A DNA stretch of 64,000 bases from Natronococcus sp. CG52 (GTDB taxonomy: Archaea; Halobacteriota; Halobacteria; Halobacteriales; Natrialbaceae): assembly GCF_023913515.1 (NCBI RefSeq), contig NZ_CP099391.1:3348001-3412000 (forward strand), given 5' to 3'. The translations under genes were made by a program, and so were the position numbers. The notes below the pieces were generated by a model. That model worked only from the letters and a program-made list of their open reading frames with translations, was not told where the DNA came from and did not search any database. Positions 8,485 to 17,159 of the stretch are shown here, piece by piece (within the stretch, counting starts at the first letter, position 1; every line of letters starts with the position of its first letter).

Positions 8485-8585
8485 CCGACCGACGCGTAAG
8501 ACCTAACCAGCCGCTCTGAGTACGAGTTACCGATGACACGCGGGAACGGCCGGCCCCTCGAGTTCACCGACGTCACCACAGTACC

Positions 8586-10760
8586 ATGAGCGACGACACC
8601 CAACCGGACGGCACCGAGATTCGACAGCTCGACGAGGACACCGTCGCCCGGATCGCCGCCGGCGAGGTCGTCGAGCGGCCCGCGAGCGCGGTCAAAGAAC
8701 TGGTCGAGAACAGCCTCGACGCCGGCGCCTCGAGCGTCGACGTTACGATCGAATCCGGCGGCACGGAGCTGATTCGGGTCGCCGACGACGGCCACGGCAT
8801 GGCCGAGGCGGATCTCCGGGCGGCCGTCCGCCAGCACACGACGAGCAAGATCACCGGCCTCGAGGACCTCGAGTCCGGCGTCGCCACCCTCGGCTTCCGG
8901 GGCGAGGCGCTGCACACCATCGGCTCCGTCTCGAAGCTGAACATCCGGAGCCGCCCCCGGGACGCCGGCGGCGCCGGGACGGAACTCGTCTACGAGGGCG
9001 GCGACGTCGTTTCGGTCGAGCCGACGGGCTCTCCCGCAGGGACGACCGTCGAGGTCGCGGACCTCTTCTACAACACCCCCGCCCGCCGGAAGTTCCTCAA
9101 GACGACCGCGACCGAGTTCGCCCACGTCAACCGCGTCGTCACGCGCTACGCCCTCGCGAACCCCGACGTCGCGGTCTCGCTGACCCACGACGGCCGCGAG
9201 GTCTTCTCCACGACCGGGCAGGGCGACCTGCAGGCCGCCGTGCTCTCCGTCTACGGCCGCGAGGTCGCCGCCTCGATGATCCCGATCCAGGCCGACGGCG
9301 ACGAGCTTCCGGTCGGGCCGCTCGAGTCCGTCACCGGGCTAGTCTCCCACCCCGAGACGAACCGCTCGAGCCGGGAGTACCTCGCCACGTACGTCAACGG
9401 CCGCGCCGTCTCGGCGGACGCGGTCCGAGAGGGGATCATGGGCGCCTACGGCACCCAGCTCGGCGGCGACCGCTACCCGTTCGTCGTGCTCTTCCTCGAC
9501 GTGCCCGGCGACGCCGTCGACGTGAACGTCCACCCGCGAAAGCGAGAGGTCAGATTCGACGACGACGACGCGGTGCGCCGGCAGGTCGACGCCGCCGTCG
9601 AGGCCGCGCTGCTCGAGCACGGCCTGTTGCGCTCGCGGGCGCCCCGCGGCCGCTCGGCCCCCGACGAGGCGCGACTCGAGCCCGGTAGCGCCGACGGACC
9701 GGCAGACGAGTCGGCGGCCGAGGCCTCGAGCGAGACCGAGTCGAGGGATGGGCGAGCGCCGGACTCCGGTGCGGATCCGGATTCCGACCCCGGTACGATC
9801 GAATCCCCGTCGACCGACTCTGAGGCGCGAACGCAGCCGCCGGACGGCCCCCGAACGGGACGAGCCGAGGACGCTGATTCCGTCGCGGCCAACTCGGCGG
9901 ACTTCGGCGGCTCGGGCGACTCGGACGATTCGAGCCCGCCGAACGAGAGCGGGGCACTCTCGTCGGAACCGACCGACGACACGCAACCGCCGAACGCGGA
10001 CTCGGCGATCACCGGATCCGTCCGGGACCCCGATCCGAACGCGGACGAGAACCATAGCCAGGCCGGATCGGACTCGAGTCGGCGCTTCTCGGGACCGTCC
10101 GAACAGCGGACCCTCGCGGGGGAGGCCGCGAGCGGCGACCGATCCGACTTCGACTCGCTGCCGCCGCTGCAGGTGCTCGGCCAGTTCCGGGAGACCTATT
10201 TCGTCTGCGAGGCGCCCGACGGACTCGTGCTCGTCGACCAGCACGCCGCCGACGAGCGCGTCAACTACGAGCGCCTGCGGAACGCCTTCGCCGACGATCC
10301 GGCCGCCCAGGCGCTGGCCTCGCCGGTCGAACTCGAGCTAACCGCCGCGGAGGCCGAGGCGTTCGAGAGCTACCGCGAGGCGCTCGCTCGGCTGGGGTTC
10401 TACGCCGACCGGGTCGACGATCGGACCGTCGCGGTGACGACCGTCCCCGCGGTGCTCGAGGAGACGCTCGAGCCGGCCCGACTGCGGGACGTCCTCACCT
10501 CGTTCGTCGAGGGCGACCGCGAGGCCGGCGCCGAGACGATCGACGCGCTGGCCGACGAGTTCCTCGGCGATCTGGCCTGTTACCCCTCGATCACGGGGAA
10601 CACCTCGCTGACCGAGGGGTCAGTCGTCGATCTGCTCGCGGCACTGGACGACTGCGAGAACCCGTACTCCTGCCCGCACGGTCGACCGGTTATCGTCCAG
10701 CTCGACGAGACGGAGATCGAAGAGCGGTTCGAGCGCGACTATCCCGGTCACGGCGGCTAA
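8586..10760 (+). CDS. mutL: DNA mismatch repair protein MutL with endonuclease motif
   Basis: A MutL homologue of 724 residues. The GHKL ATPase half has IAAGEVVERPASAVKELVEN with NSLDAGA, the DDGHGM box, TSKI and GFRGEAL. Between about residues 340 and 515 lies a long acidic, Ser/Asp/Pro-rich linker. The C-terminal dimerisation domain carries DQHAADERVNYE, matching the DQHAX2EX4E endonuclease motif, plus a late CPHGRP. These support a nicking MutL like that of organisms lacking MutH. The C-terminus ends GHGG. It follows mutS and an SDR gene on the same strand, and probably nicks DNA after MutS recognition. Confidence 0.97.
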   Translation: MSDDTQPDGTEIRQLDEDTVARIAAGEVVERPASAVKELVENSLDAGASSVDVTIESGGTELIRVADDGHGMAEADLRAAVRQHTTSKITGLEDLESGVATLGFRGEALHTIGSVSKLNIRSRPRDAGGAGTELVYEGGDVVSVEPTGSPAGTTVEVADLFYNTPARRKFLKTTATEFAHVNRVVTRYALANPDVAVSLTHDGREVFSTTGQGDLQAAVLSVYGREVAASMIPIQADGDELPVGPLESVTGLVSHPETNRSSREYLATYVNGRAVSADAVREGIMGAYGTQLGGDRYPFVVLFLDVPGDAVDVNVHPRKREVRFDDDDAVRRQVDAAVEAALLEHGLLRSRAPRGRSAPDEARLEPGSADGPADESAAEASSETESRDGRAPDSGADPDSDPGTIESPSTDSEARTQPPDGPRTGRAEDADSVAANSADFGGSGDSDDSSPPNESGALSSEPTDDTQPPNADSAITGSVRDPDPNADENHSQAGSDSSRRFSGPSEQRTLAGEAASGDRSDFDSLPPLQVLGQFRETYFVCEAPDGLVLVDQHAADERVNYERLRNAFADDPAAQALASPVELELTAAEAEAFESYREALARLGFYADRVDDRTVAVTTVPAVLEETLEPARLRDVLTSFVEGDREAGAETIDALADEFLGDLACYPSITGNTSLTEGSVVDLLAALDDCENPYSCPHGRPVIVQLDETEIEERFERDYPGHGG

Positions 10761-13641: not shown

Positions 13642-14754
13642 ATGCGCGAACTCGACGGCTCGAACGCGGGCGGCCAGTTCCTTCGCACCGCCCTCACGCT
13701 GTCCGTCCTCGAGAACCAGCCCGTGCGACTCGAGAACGTCCGCGGCGACCGACCGAACCCCGGGCTCGCCCATCAGCACCTGGCCGTCCTCGAGACGATG
13801 GCCGAACTCTGCGACGCGGAGGTATCGGGGACCGAACTCGGCGCGGAGACGATCGAGTTCGATCCGGGGCTCTCGGACGGCGGCGGGAGCGGAAACGGAG
13901 ACGGGAGCGATTTCGGTACGGCGCGCCTCGAGGGCGGCAGCTACGCCGTCGACATCGGCACCGCAGGGAGCGCGACCCTGCTGTTCGACGCGGTCCTCCC
14001 GCTCGCGACGGTGCTCGAGTCGCGGCTGTCGATCACGGTCACCGGCGGGACGGACGTCGAGTGGTCGCCGCCGCTCGATTACGCCGGACACGTGAAACTG
14101 CCCTTGCTGGGACGGTACGGACTCGTCGCCTCCTGCGAGGTCGACCGACGCGGGTTCTATCCGGACGGCGGCGGGCGGGTGACGCTCCGGCTCGCGCCGT
14201 CGACCCTCGAGCCCCTCGACCTCGCGGAGCGTGGCGACCTCGAGGGCGTCCGGCTCTACTCGACGGAGTCGGCGTCGCTCGCGGACCGGGGCGTGGCACA
14301 CCGGCAGCTGGAAGGGGCGCTCGAGCGACTCGATGTCGCTGGCCCGAATCGAAACGGTGGGGACGACCTCGAGGTACTCGAGCGCCAGGAGCGAACCGCG
14401 GCGAGCCCCTCGCCCGGCTCCGCGCTGGTGATCCGCGTCGATCACGGCACCGGAATCGCCGGCTTCGGCGCCCTCGGCGAACGCGGGAAGCCGGCCGAAC
14501 GAGTCGGCGAGGACGCCGCGGACGCCGCAAATCGGTTTCTCGAGGGATCGGCACCCGTCGACCCCCACATGGGCGATCAGCTCCTCGTCTCCCTCGCGCT
14601 CGCCGGCGGGCGCGTTCGACTCCCGGCCGTGACCGACCACGTCGAGGCGAGTCGCGAGTTGCTCGCGTCGTTCGGGATCGAGACCGTACTCGAGTACGAG
14701 CACGAGCGCGACGGCGAAGCGGTCGTCTCGCTCGAGTCGGCACCGCTGCTGTAG
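13642..14754 (+). CDS. rtcA: RNA 3'-terminal phosphate cyclase RtcA
   Basis: A 370-residue RtcA that converts RNA 3'-phosphates to 2',3'-cyclic phosphates using ATP through a covalent AMP-histidine intermediate. The N-terminal family motif is NAGGQFLRTALTLSVL, followed by RPNPGLAHQHL. The catalytic histidine is in DPHMGDQLL near residue 311, equivalent to the bacterial HLADQL histidine. Length is slightly above the usual 340, owing to a small Gly/Asn insertion (SDGGGSGNGDGSD) and another near 235. No RtcB lies nearby. It runs toward kdgK, about 60 bases upstream of that promoter. Confidence 0.95.
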   Translation: MRELDGSNAGGQFLRTALTLSVLENQPVRLENVRGDRPNPGLAHQHLAVLETMAELCDAEVSGTELGAETIEFDPGLSDGGGSGNGDGSDFGTARLEGGSYAVDIGTAGSATLLFDAVLPLATVLESRLSITVTGGTDVEWSPPLDYAGHVKLPLLGRYGLVASCEVDRRGFYPDGGGRVTLRLAPSTLEPLDLAERGDLEGVRLYSTESASLADRGVAHRQLEGALERLDVAGPNRNGGDDLEVLERQERTAASPSPGSALVIRVDHGTGIAGFGALGERGKPAERVGEDAADAANRFLEGSAPVDPHMGDQLLVSLALAGGRVRLPAVTDHVEASRELLASFGIETVLEYEHERDGEAVVSLESAPLL

Positions 14755-14782: not shown

Positions 14783-14788
14783 CTTATA
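14783..14788 (+). promoter_or_regulatory. TATA box of the kdgK region
   Basis: CTTATA 25 bases ahead of ATG 14813 matches a haloarchaeal TATA box placed for a leaderless transcript starting at or near that ATG. It is too far from the kdgK GTG at 14860 to give a leaderless kdgK message. Confidence 0.55.
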
Positions 14789-14812
14789 GCGCGCCCGTGC
14801 CATCCATCGGGT

Positions 14813-14863
14813 ATGACCGCGACACCGATCACCGTCGAAACGAGCCGGAGGGTCGAGCCGTGA
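14813..14863 (+). CDS. 16-codon leaderless minicistron overlapping kdgK
   Basis: ATG 14813 opens a 16-residue ORF (MTATPITVETSRRVEP) that stops at TGA 14861-14863. Its end overlaps the kdgK start as GTGA (GTG 14860, TGA 14861). Position relative to the TATA box fits leaderless translation from this ATG, followed by coupled re-initiation at kdgK. It could be a regulatory upstream ORF. It could also be the true 5' end of kdgK disrupted by a frameshift, or chance. There is no homology evidence. Confidence 0.4.
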   Translation: MTATPITVETSRRVEP

Positions 14864-15816
14864 GCGACGTCGTCACCTTCGGCGAGACGATGCTCCGCCT
14901 CTCGCCGCCCGACCACCGGCGCCTCGAGGACACCGACGAACTCGAACTCCGCGCCGCCGGAGCCGAGAGCAACGTCGCCATCGCGGCCCAGCGTCTGGGC
15001 TCGGCGGACTCGACCTGGACCTCGAAGCTGCCCGACTCGCCGCTCGGTCGGCGCGTCGTCGGCGAACTCAACAGGTACGGCATCGACACGGATATCGTCT
15101 GGAGCGACGAGGGGCGCCAGGGAACGTACTACCTCGAACACGGCGGCAAGCCGCGCGGCACGAACGTCATCTACGACCGGGACGACACCGCGATCTCGAC
15201 CGCCGAAGCCCAGGAGTTCGACGTCGACCTGATCCAGAACGCGGACGTCTTCTTCACGACCGGAATCACGCCCGCGCTCTCGCCGACGCTTCGAGAGACG
15301 ACGATGAACATGCTCAAGGCGGCCAGACAGGGCGGGACCACCACCGCGTTCGACTTCAACTACCGCCAGAAGCTCTGGTCGCCCGAGGAGGCAAAGCAGA
15401 CGCTGACGACGCTCTTCGCGGGTATCGACGTGCTCGTGATCGCCGCTCGAGACGCGCAGAACGTCCTCGGGATCGACGGCGACCCGCGACAGCTCGCACA
15501 CACCCTCGGCTCGCAGTTCGACTTCACCACCGTCGTCGTCACGCGCGGTTCGAAGGGGGCTCTCGCCTGGCACGACAACACGGTCTACGATCACGGCGCC
15601 TACGAAACGGAGACCGTCGACCCGATCGGGACGGGCGACGCGTTCACCGGCGCGTTCCTCGCTCGCCGACTCGACGGCGACGACGTGCCGACCGCACTCG
15701 AGTACGCCGCGGCGACGGCGGCGCTCAAGCGGACGATTCCCGGCGACGTCGCGCTCGTCACCAGAGAGGAGGTCGAGCAGGTCGTCTCGGAGGACGACGA
15801 AGAGATCTCGCGATAA
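14860..15816 (+). CDS. kdgK: 2-keto-3-deoxygluconate kinase (PfkB family)
   Basis: A ribokinase/PfkB-fold sugar kinase of 318 residues. It begins VSDVVTFGETMLRLSPPD, then has AAGAESNVAIAAQRLG (first PfkB signature region), GTYYLEHGG, and ends with the anion-hole and catalytic base motif DPIGTGDAFTGAFLARRL. This pattern is very close to the haloarchaeal KDG kinase of the semi-phosphorylative Entner-Doudoroff pathway, which phosphorylates KDG before KDPG aldolase cleavage. GTG 14860 is preferred because the upstream in-frame extension is basic and unlike the family. Translational coupling to the upstream minicistron is possible. No other pathway gene lies in the window. Confidence 0.88.
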   Translation: MSDVVTFGETMLRLSPPDHRRLEDTDELELRAAGAESNVAIAAQRLGSADSTWTSKLPDSPLGRRVVGELNRYGIDTDIVWSDEGRQGTYYLEHGGKPRGTNVIYDRDDTAISTAEAQEFDVDLIQNADVFFTTGITPALSPTLRETTMNMLKAARQGGTTTAFDFNYRQKLWSPEEAKQTLTTLFAGIDVLVIAARDAQNVLGIDGDPRQLAHTLGSQFDFTTVVVTRGSKGALAWHDNTVYDHGAYETETVDPIGTGDAFTGAFLARRLDGDDVPTALEYAAATAALKRTIPGDVALVTREEVEQVVSEDDEEISR

Positions 15817-15998: not shown

Positions 15999-17159
15999 AT
16001 GAATCGCGTAACTGCCGTTGCACTCGCGTTCATCGTCACGACGGCGACCCTCTCGGTCGCCGCCGTCGGCGCCGGCGCGAGCGCAGCATCGTCCTCCCAG
16101 ACTGTCGACGCCCAGTCCGAATCTGACGCGTACGCGGGAACCTACGTGACGTTCGAGGCGTCCGGGAACGCACTCACCGACTACCGCGTCGACGGCGAAC
16201 CGGTTTTCGAGAACGTGAGCGTCGACGCACAGAGCGACCACCAGAGCGAGGTCGGCGCCGGCGCCGACGTCAGCCTCGCGGCCGTAACCAGCCTCTCGGG
16301 TACCGGCCTCCAGCTCGACGCACGGAGCGAGACCCGCGCCGAGGTCAGCACCGACGGCTCCGCGTCGATCAACGCTCACGACACCGAGCGCGGTATTCTG
16401 ACCGTCCACGCCGGCGAGGAGTCGCAGTACGTCGAACTCGAACTCGCGGGCGAGAGCAACGCCGAAGCCGACGGTGACGACCGCATCGTCGTCGAGAGCG
16501 ACGACCGGACCGGCGTGTTTGTCGTCGGCGGCGACGGTGACGTGACCGTCAACGACCAGGGCGACGTCACGGCCGAACTCGAGAGCGAGTCGACGCTCGT
16601 CTTCCGCTCGTACGGAGACGGCGAGCGCGACGACGACGCCCAGGCCCAGGAAGAGCTGATCGCCGACGGAACGGCGACCGCGGAAGTCTACGTCGACGAG
16701 CGCGACGGCGACCGCGTCGCGGACGTCGCGACCTACGGCCAGGATATCGCCGTCGAGACCCACGAGCAGAGCGAGGAGCGCCTCGAGATGACCGTCGAGC
16801 GGACCCGGAGCGAGGGAACCGTCGTCATCACGAGCGTCTCCGAAGGCGCCATCGAGGCCGCCGAAACCGCCGAAGACCTCGAGGTGACGATCGACGGCGA
16901 GGCCGCCGCGGAGGCGTCCTCCTTCGACGAACTCGAGGGCGGCATCGGCGAGGAGCCGCGGTACATGGTGAGCCAGTCCGGCGAGGCGTCGGCAGCCGCC
17001 GACGTGCTCGTCGCGGTGAATCACTTCTCCGAGCGCGAGGTCGCGATCCAGGACGACAGCTCGGCCGATGCAGGCGACGACGCGGACAGCGTCCCCGGAT
17101 TCGGTACTCTCGCGGCACTCGTCGCGGCGCTCGTCGCCGCCGCCAGCCGCGTCCGGTAA
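15999..17159 (+). CDS. Secreted surface protein with PGF-CTERM anchor
   Basis: A predicted exported protein of 386 residues with a Sec-type signal peptide (hydrophobic about residues 5-25, ending GAGASAASS). The C-terminus is a PGF-CTERM tripartite signal: an acidic linker, VPGFG, a hydrophobic helix and basic SRVR. This signal is the substrate of archaeosortase A, which removes it and lipid-anchors the protein. The body (about 35-350) is acidic, beta-rich and Ala/Glu/Asp/Val-dominated, with no family I recognise. A TATA-like element and inverted repeat precede it. It probably sits on the cell surface; its role is unknown. Confidence 0.85.
   Translation: MNRVTAVALAFIVTTATLSVAAVGAGASAASSSQTVDAQSESDAYAGTYVTFEASGNALTDYRVDGEPVFENVSVDAQSDHQSEVGAGADVSLAAVTSLSGTGLQLDARSETRAEVSTDGSASINAHDTERGILTVHAGEESQYVELELAGESNAEADGDDRIVVESDDRTGVFVVGGDGDVTVNDQGDVTAELESESTLVFRSYGDGERDDDAQAQEELIADGTATAEVYVDERDGDRVADVATYGQDIAVETHEQSEERLEMTVERTRSEGTVVITSVSEGAIEAAETAEDLEVTIDGEAAAEASSFDELEGGIGEEPRYMVSQSGEASAAADVLVAVNHFSEREVAIQDDSSADAGDDADSVPGFGTLAALVAALVAAASRVR

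Follow-up and report, generated by a model that had tools for sequence, protein, structure and literature searches.

A short open reading frame (ORF) upstream of kdgK in Natronococcus sp. CG52, predicted to be leaderless and ending in the start codon of kdgK, very probably serves as an entry point for ribosomes at the mRNA 5' end, from which they pass to kdgK by termination-reinitiation. This minicistron lies in a window of 64,000 nucleotides (the whole stretch of DNA analyzed, in which position 1 is the first letter). It spans positions 14813-14863 of the + strand, comprises 16 codons (MTATPITVETSRRVEP*) and stops at the TGA of 14861-14863, which forms with the GTG start codon of kdgK a GTGA stop/start overlap at 14860-14863 of the + strand. 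kdgK itself (14860-15816, + strand) codes for a 2-dehydro-3-deoxygluconokinase/-galactonokinase of 318 amino acids, as judged by a PfkB Pfam match and by a score of 536.8 bits (cutoff 440) against NF041332 (haloarchaeal KDG/KDGal kinase). An SD-like GGAGG is located within the minicistron, 8 nucleotides 5' of the kdgK GTG (14847-14851, + strand). The locus thus has a stop/start overlap of 4 nucleotides, where haloarchaeal termination-reinitiation pairs have 1 or 4, and, like such pairs, an SD motif inside the upstream ORF. It also has the form of the coupled small ORFs of the mycobacterial kind, which have 5-50 codons and share an RTGA with the start of the next gene; an RTGA overlap is present in most of the orthologs as well.

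The promoter appears to be placed for the minicistron, rather than for the gene that follows. A promoter matrix trained on 800 kb of the Natronococcus genome, with an A-rich BRE and a TTWT near position -29, the pattern of leaderless genes, scored 4.7 at ATG 14813 and -12 at kdgK GTG 14860, which agrees with the claim of an earlier note on this DNA that the promoter serves the ATG and not the GTG. The same note put the TATA box at 14783; the element is TTATA at 14784-14788 (+ strand), and its assignment to the kdgK transcript draws on the sequence, the promoter matrix and a spacing common to the coupled orthologs. Its first base is at -29 from ATG 14813, the same spacing as that of leaderless genes in this genome. 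The kdgK frame is open upstream as far as a GTG at 14797 (14797-14859), and automatic start calling could wrongly give a KdgK of 339 residues. An N-terminal extension of KdgK from this in-frame GTG was rejected, because it is upstream of the predicted transcription start site and absent from the orthologs.

In the mechanism proposed here, transcription would start at ATG 14813 or no more than one or two bases away from it, which would make the mRNA leaderless for the 16-codon minicistron. Ribosomes would load on the 5'-terminal AUG, synthesize a throw-away peptide and terminate at UGA 14861-14863. The GGAGG at 14847-14851 would then help to reposition the ribosome, which would re-initiate at the overlapping GUG 14860 and yield KdgK. 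The object of selection would be the delivery of ribosomes, not the peptide. We infer exactly where transcription starts, that the minicistron is translated and that KdgK synthesis depends on it, the last by analogy with overlapping gene pairs of Haloferax volcanii, where nine of nine tested pairs were strictly coupled, including pairs with 4-nucleotide overlaps and an SD motif (PMC6728339).

In H. volcanii, SD motifs are enriched before the distal genes of operons, and at the 5'-UTR tested they do not drive de novo initiation (PMC3986360). The latter result counts against the alternative that ribosomes load directly at the SD motif and GUG 14860, with the upstream ORF (uORF) translated in parallel to little effect and its overlap tolerated. 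We regard this alternative as unlikely, even though GGAGG is well spaced before GUG 14860 and one adjacent gene pair of S. solfataricus is uncoupled (PMC6728339). Haloarchaea can, moreover, translate leadered mRNAs without an SD motif and from GUG (PMC3986360), so some independent initiation at 14860 may occur.

The 16-codon ORF and its GTGA overlap with kdgK, as described in the earlier note, were confirmed by the sequence and have counterparts throughout the family of the window (Natrialbaceae). Among kdgK orthologs read from 124 genomes, 124 had the coupled arrangement, i.e., an upstream ATG (uATG) at promoter distance and an ORF ending in the kdgK start. The promoter score of the uORF had a median of 5.1 in coupled loci and was above 0 in 99% of them, and that of kdgK's own start had a median of -8.2 and was never above 0. 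The distance from the uATG to kdgK varied from 32 to 83 nucleotides in the family, and the uORFs of coupled loci had 9 to 27 codons; for example, locus L123 has its uATG at -83, in phase 2, with 27 codons. Most of these distances were 2 mod 3, which corresponds to a 4-nucleotide overlap (GTGA or ATGA). A few clades were 1 mod 3, with a stop at +5 (GTGAGTGA, GTGCGTGA) and hence an overlap of 8 nucleotides; within the family, the uORF invariably reaches 4 or 8 nucleotides into kdgK. Among all coupled kdgK loci, one relative had a 1-nucleotide overlap (TGATG). The earlier note had asked whether the length of the ORF and its GTGA overlap are conserved. The ORF varies in length, but its frame, its distance from the promoter and its overlap with kdgK persist throughout the family.

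Over 130 coupled loci with 1843 codons, the uORF frame contained no internal stop, and the other two frames contained 17 and 29. On a FastTree tree of 184 KdgK sequences, the uATG-to-kdgK distance underwent a minimum of 31 changes in the family, and its phase only 4. Retention of phase in at least 27 of 31 changes has a probability of about 9e-10 if the phases are free (1/3), and of 2e-5 if half of all indels are multiples of three (1/2), the changes being taken as independent in both calculations. Furthermore, a stop at +5 occurred in all 9 phase-1 (shifted) loci, which represent about five lineages, versus 8 of the 130 phase-2 loci; in phase-2 loci that lack this stop, the +5 frame runs for a median of 479 nucleotides into kdgK. 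The lack of in-frame stops, the retained phase and the +5 stops therefore argue that selection keeps an ORF ending at the kdgK start. This family-wide conservation of frame, spacing and overlap supports the idea that the upstream minicistron is leaderless and so arranged that re-initiation at kdgK is coupled to it.

Direct loading at GUG 14860 leaves unexplained both the retention of frame and stop through at least 31 length changes and the rescuing stops of the frame-slipped lineages. The same observations bear on chance. When a haloarchaeal gene starts with GTGAGC (Met-Ser), one in three random ORFs from upstream will stop there, and the overlap could be coincidental; xTGAGC starts are common, and in a census of 800 kb of the genome ATGs with poor promoter scores also yielded some 4-nucleotide overlaps. 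Nonetheless, the frame has been retained through changes in length, both in the entire family and in several others, in-frame stops are absent, and every frame-slipped lineage has the +5 stop. Coincidence is hardly credible in the face of these comparative data, which already refute it for the kdgK overlap.

The alternative to a minicistron is also found among haloarchaea. In Haloferax, Haloarcula, Halosimplex, Halorussus, Haladaptatus, Halobacterium and Halalkalicoccus, a TATA-like element mostly lies about 27-31 nucleotides before kdgK's own ATG, and from this spacing kdgK of these genera looks itself leaderless. Some second kdgK copies of Haloferax are apparently coupled to an upstream gene, as judged by eye, and the paralogous second copies within the family (55-61% identity) mostly have a plain leaderless arrangement, with the TATA box about 29 nucleotides 5' of their own ATG. 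Minicistrons are likewise present in Halostella, Salinarchaeum, Halorubrum and several metagenomic lineages, and by parsimony at least five changes between the coupled and uncoupled states are required.

The two states differ in their start codons and SD motifs. GTG was the start codon in 107 of 139 coupled kdgK loci versus 1 of 45 uncoupled ones (P = 1.5e-20, ignoring relatedness). This near-complete confinement of GTG to coupled genes fits the failure of GUG in leaderless initiation, for which it was reported to be non-functional in haloarchaea (PMC3986360). Exact SD runs of at least 5 nucleotides were present in 56% of coupled versus 2% of uncoupled loci, and runs of at least 4 nucleotides in 75% versus 22%. 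An exact run of 4 nucleotides is missing from about a quarter of the coupled orthologs, which counts against hand-over by termination-reinitiation as the explanation.

The peptide shows none of the conservation that marks its reading frame. No shared minicistron peptide sequence was found among the coupled orthologs. In the largest group of equal length, codon positions 1, 2 and 3 had flat substitution rates of 0.36, 0.24 and 0.32, and in the next group the rates were 0.38, 0.40 and 0.32; selection on the peptide was rejected on these flat rates. The C-terminal residues of the minicistron are what they are because of the SD-like GGAGGG. By these comparisons, selection does not act on the peptide as a product. 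The linkage is thus conserved and the peptide is not, as in coupled small ORFs of the mycobacterial kind. It is accordingly very improbable that a functional small protein is made from the minicistron, or that the ORF extends KdgK by programmed frameshifting. Although a conserved ORF in a conserved place might suggest either, the uORFs share no peptide, range from 9 to 27 codons, have a flat substitution pattern and occur in two different phases relative to kdgK.

A regulatory leader peptide (an attenuator or a ribosome-stalling sensor), which would tune kdgK to the supply of sugar or amino acids, is slightly more conceivable, but still improbable. The uORF does head a catabolic gene, and attenuating leaderless small ORFs were proposed in mycobacteria (PMC4633059). 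However, neither a conserved peptide nor a run of sensor codons emerged from the uORF comparison, in which peptide and codons were unconserved and codon-position rates flat. RNA folding was no better than that of shuffled sequences (z between -0.8 and +1.3), and an Rfam search gave no match at the minicistron region, so that neither alternative RNA structures nor a terminator were detected by folding or Rfam. For want of an Rfam match and of structure beyond that of shuffles, the reading as a regulatory RNA was rejected, and the checks of peptide, folding and Rfam revealed no evidence of sugar-responsive regulation or attenuation. The same device is, in addition, found at the unrelated DUF7529 gene. 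The earlier note had suggested that an upstream minicistron would be an unusual control device for a sugar kinase. Neither part of that view was supported: the arrangement is a rule of the family that recurs at DUF7529 (and in part at DUF5305 and mutL), and signs of control are missing from peptide, folding and Rfam alike. Because it is family-wide, recurs at unrelated genes and shows no signs of regulation, the minicistron seems to be a means of loading ribosomes and not a switch.

Of 30 family orthologs of the DUF7529 gene (PF24373), 28 have an ORF of 9-20 codons with a leaderless promoter that is coupled to the gene start. The overlap is 4 nucleotides in 26 of these 28, 8 in one and 1 in another, and SD runs of 4 or 5 nucleotides are present in 27. 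In Natronococcus sp. CG52, this minicistron has ten codons, is predicted to be leaderless (L242:8053-8082, - strand; G000:C1 288082) and is as clear a case as that of kdgK. A DUF5305 gene is coupled to a 31-codon ORF, likewise predicted to be leaderless (L265:8636-8728, - strand; G000:C1 3596728). In DUF5305 orthologs with a strong promoter, the ORF mostly ends 4, 8 or 11 nucleotides past the gene start, and many orthologs have no such ORF. Within the window, an 18-codon ORF (8533-8589) with a weak leaderless promoter score of 1.9 precedes mutL (8586-10757) with a 4-nucleotide overlap; some mutL orthologs of the family have a similar coupled ORF and others do not. Given these mixed results, the DUF5305 and mutL cases are only suggestive.

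The census, which combined crude gene prediction with a promoter scan over the 800 kb, brought up a few cases besides kdgK. It found 4-nucleotide overlaps at 7 of 151 promoter-like ATGs versus 44 of 3673 others (P = 0.003), a modest enrichment. Two of its hits, 303044 and 3419916, were set aside by eye, as the promoter was apparently nearer the gene itself. By this rough count, the device is rare per genome. Since DUF7529, and partly DUF5305 and mutL, show the same arrangement, the minicistron is a recurrent device. That 5'-terminal ribosome-loading minicistrons, independent of their peptides, are a general device of haloarchaeal translation initiation, repeatedly gained and lost, seems rather probable, and is put forward with less confidence than the mechanism at kdgK.

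The closest known relatives are the leaderless small ORFs of mycobacteria, which are linked to the next gene by RTGA, with the linkage conserved and the peptide not, as supported by start-site and ribosome data (Shell et al. 2015, PMC4633059). As at kdgK, a leaderless transcript (predicted in the present case) opens with a short ORF, an RTGA overlap joins it to the gene, the peptide is unconserved, and ribosome delivery was proposed (PMC4633059); the idea of ribosome delivery is also stated in a review (PMC12548453). The mycobacterial case differs in that it is bacterial, its start sites and footprints were measured, and its example compares two species (PMC4633059). The kdgK locus belongs to an archaeon, and its predicted minicistron is conserved across a family through length changes and rescuing stops, in a host group where SD motifs reportedly do not drive de novo initiation. 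The kdgK minicistron would thus work in the same way in another domain of life, and the evolutionary evidence for it goes much deeper.

Other systems share individual features. Overlapping pairs of H. volcanii (Huber et al. 2019, PMC6728339) have the 4-nucleotide overlap and an SD motif inside the upstream ORF, but their upstream partner is a full protein gene, whereas that of kdgK is an ORF of 9-27 codons without signs of a protein function. Short ORFs upstream of haloarchaeal genes were also reported in the small-ORF section of a survey of long 5'-UTRs in H. volcanii (15-31 codons; Babski et al. 2016, PMC4983044). According to that section, the survey covered only 5'-UTRs of 150-250 nucleotides, so that 5'-terminal ORFs of the kdgK type fall outside its range, and the section gives neither an overlap rule nor conservation for the small ORFs. 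ORFs at 5'-terminal uAUGs in E. coli (Beck et al. 2016, PMC4965119) are similar in having an AUG at the mRNA 5' end and a main gene with its own SD motif. According to the abstract of that study, which does not mention conservation, these mRNAs also function as SD-leadered messages, and the effects on the gene vary. In synthetic bicistronic design (BCD) leaders, a short first cistron feeds the target gene through coupling (for example PMC5995908); these leaders are engineered, and the kdgK minicistron would be a natural, leaderless version. A description of such minicistrons in archaea was not found in the literature searched, which did not extend to the ribosome-profiling studies on H. volcanii from 2020 and 2023.

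If correctly read, kdgK offers natural replicates of an ORF whose start, frame and stop are under selection while its peptide is not, and nearly amounts to direct evolutionary proof that archaeal ribosomes are delivered by termination-reinitiation. On this reading, some apparently leadered haloarchaeal genes should prove to be second cistrons, automatic start calling could err in the vicinity of minicistron-coupled genes, and mycobacteria, another group rich in leaderless mRNAs, would have arrived at the same solution. The minicistron might also be of use as a compact expression leader in halophile engineering.

The upstream neighbor of kdgK is rtcA (13642-14754, + strand), which codes for RNA 3'-terminal phosphate cyclase (NF003246, 403.8 bits) and lies within 1.5 kb of kdgK in 49 of 52 loci checked. 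The other three loci still have the minicistron, which argues against its dependence on this neighbor. Further downstream, positions 15999-17159 of the window code for a predicted secreted protein that matches no entry in NCBIfam or Pfam. It has a signal-like stretch at its N terminus and a C-terminal tail (VPGFG, a hydrophobic segment, then R), which we take to resemble that of archaeal PGF-CTERM surface proteins.
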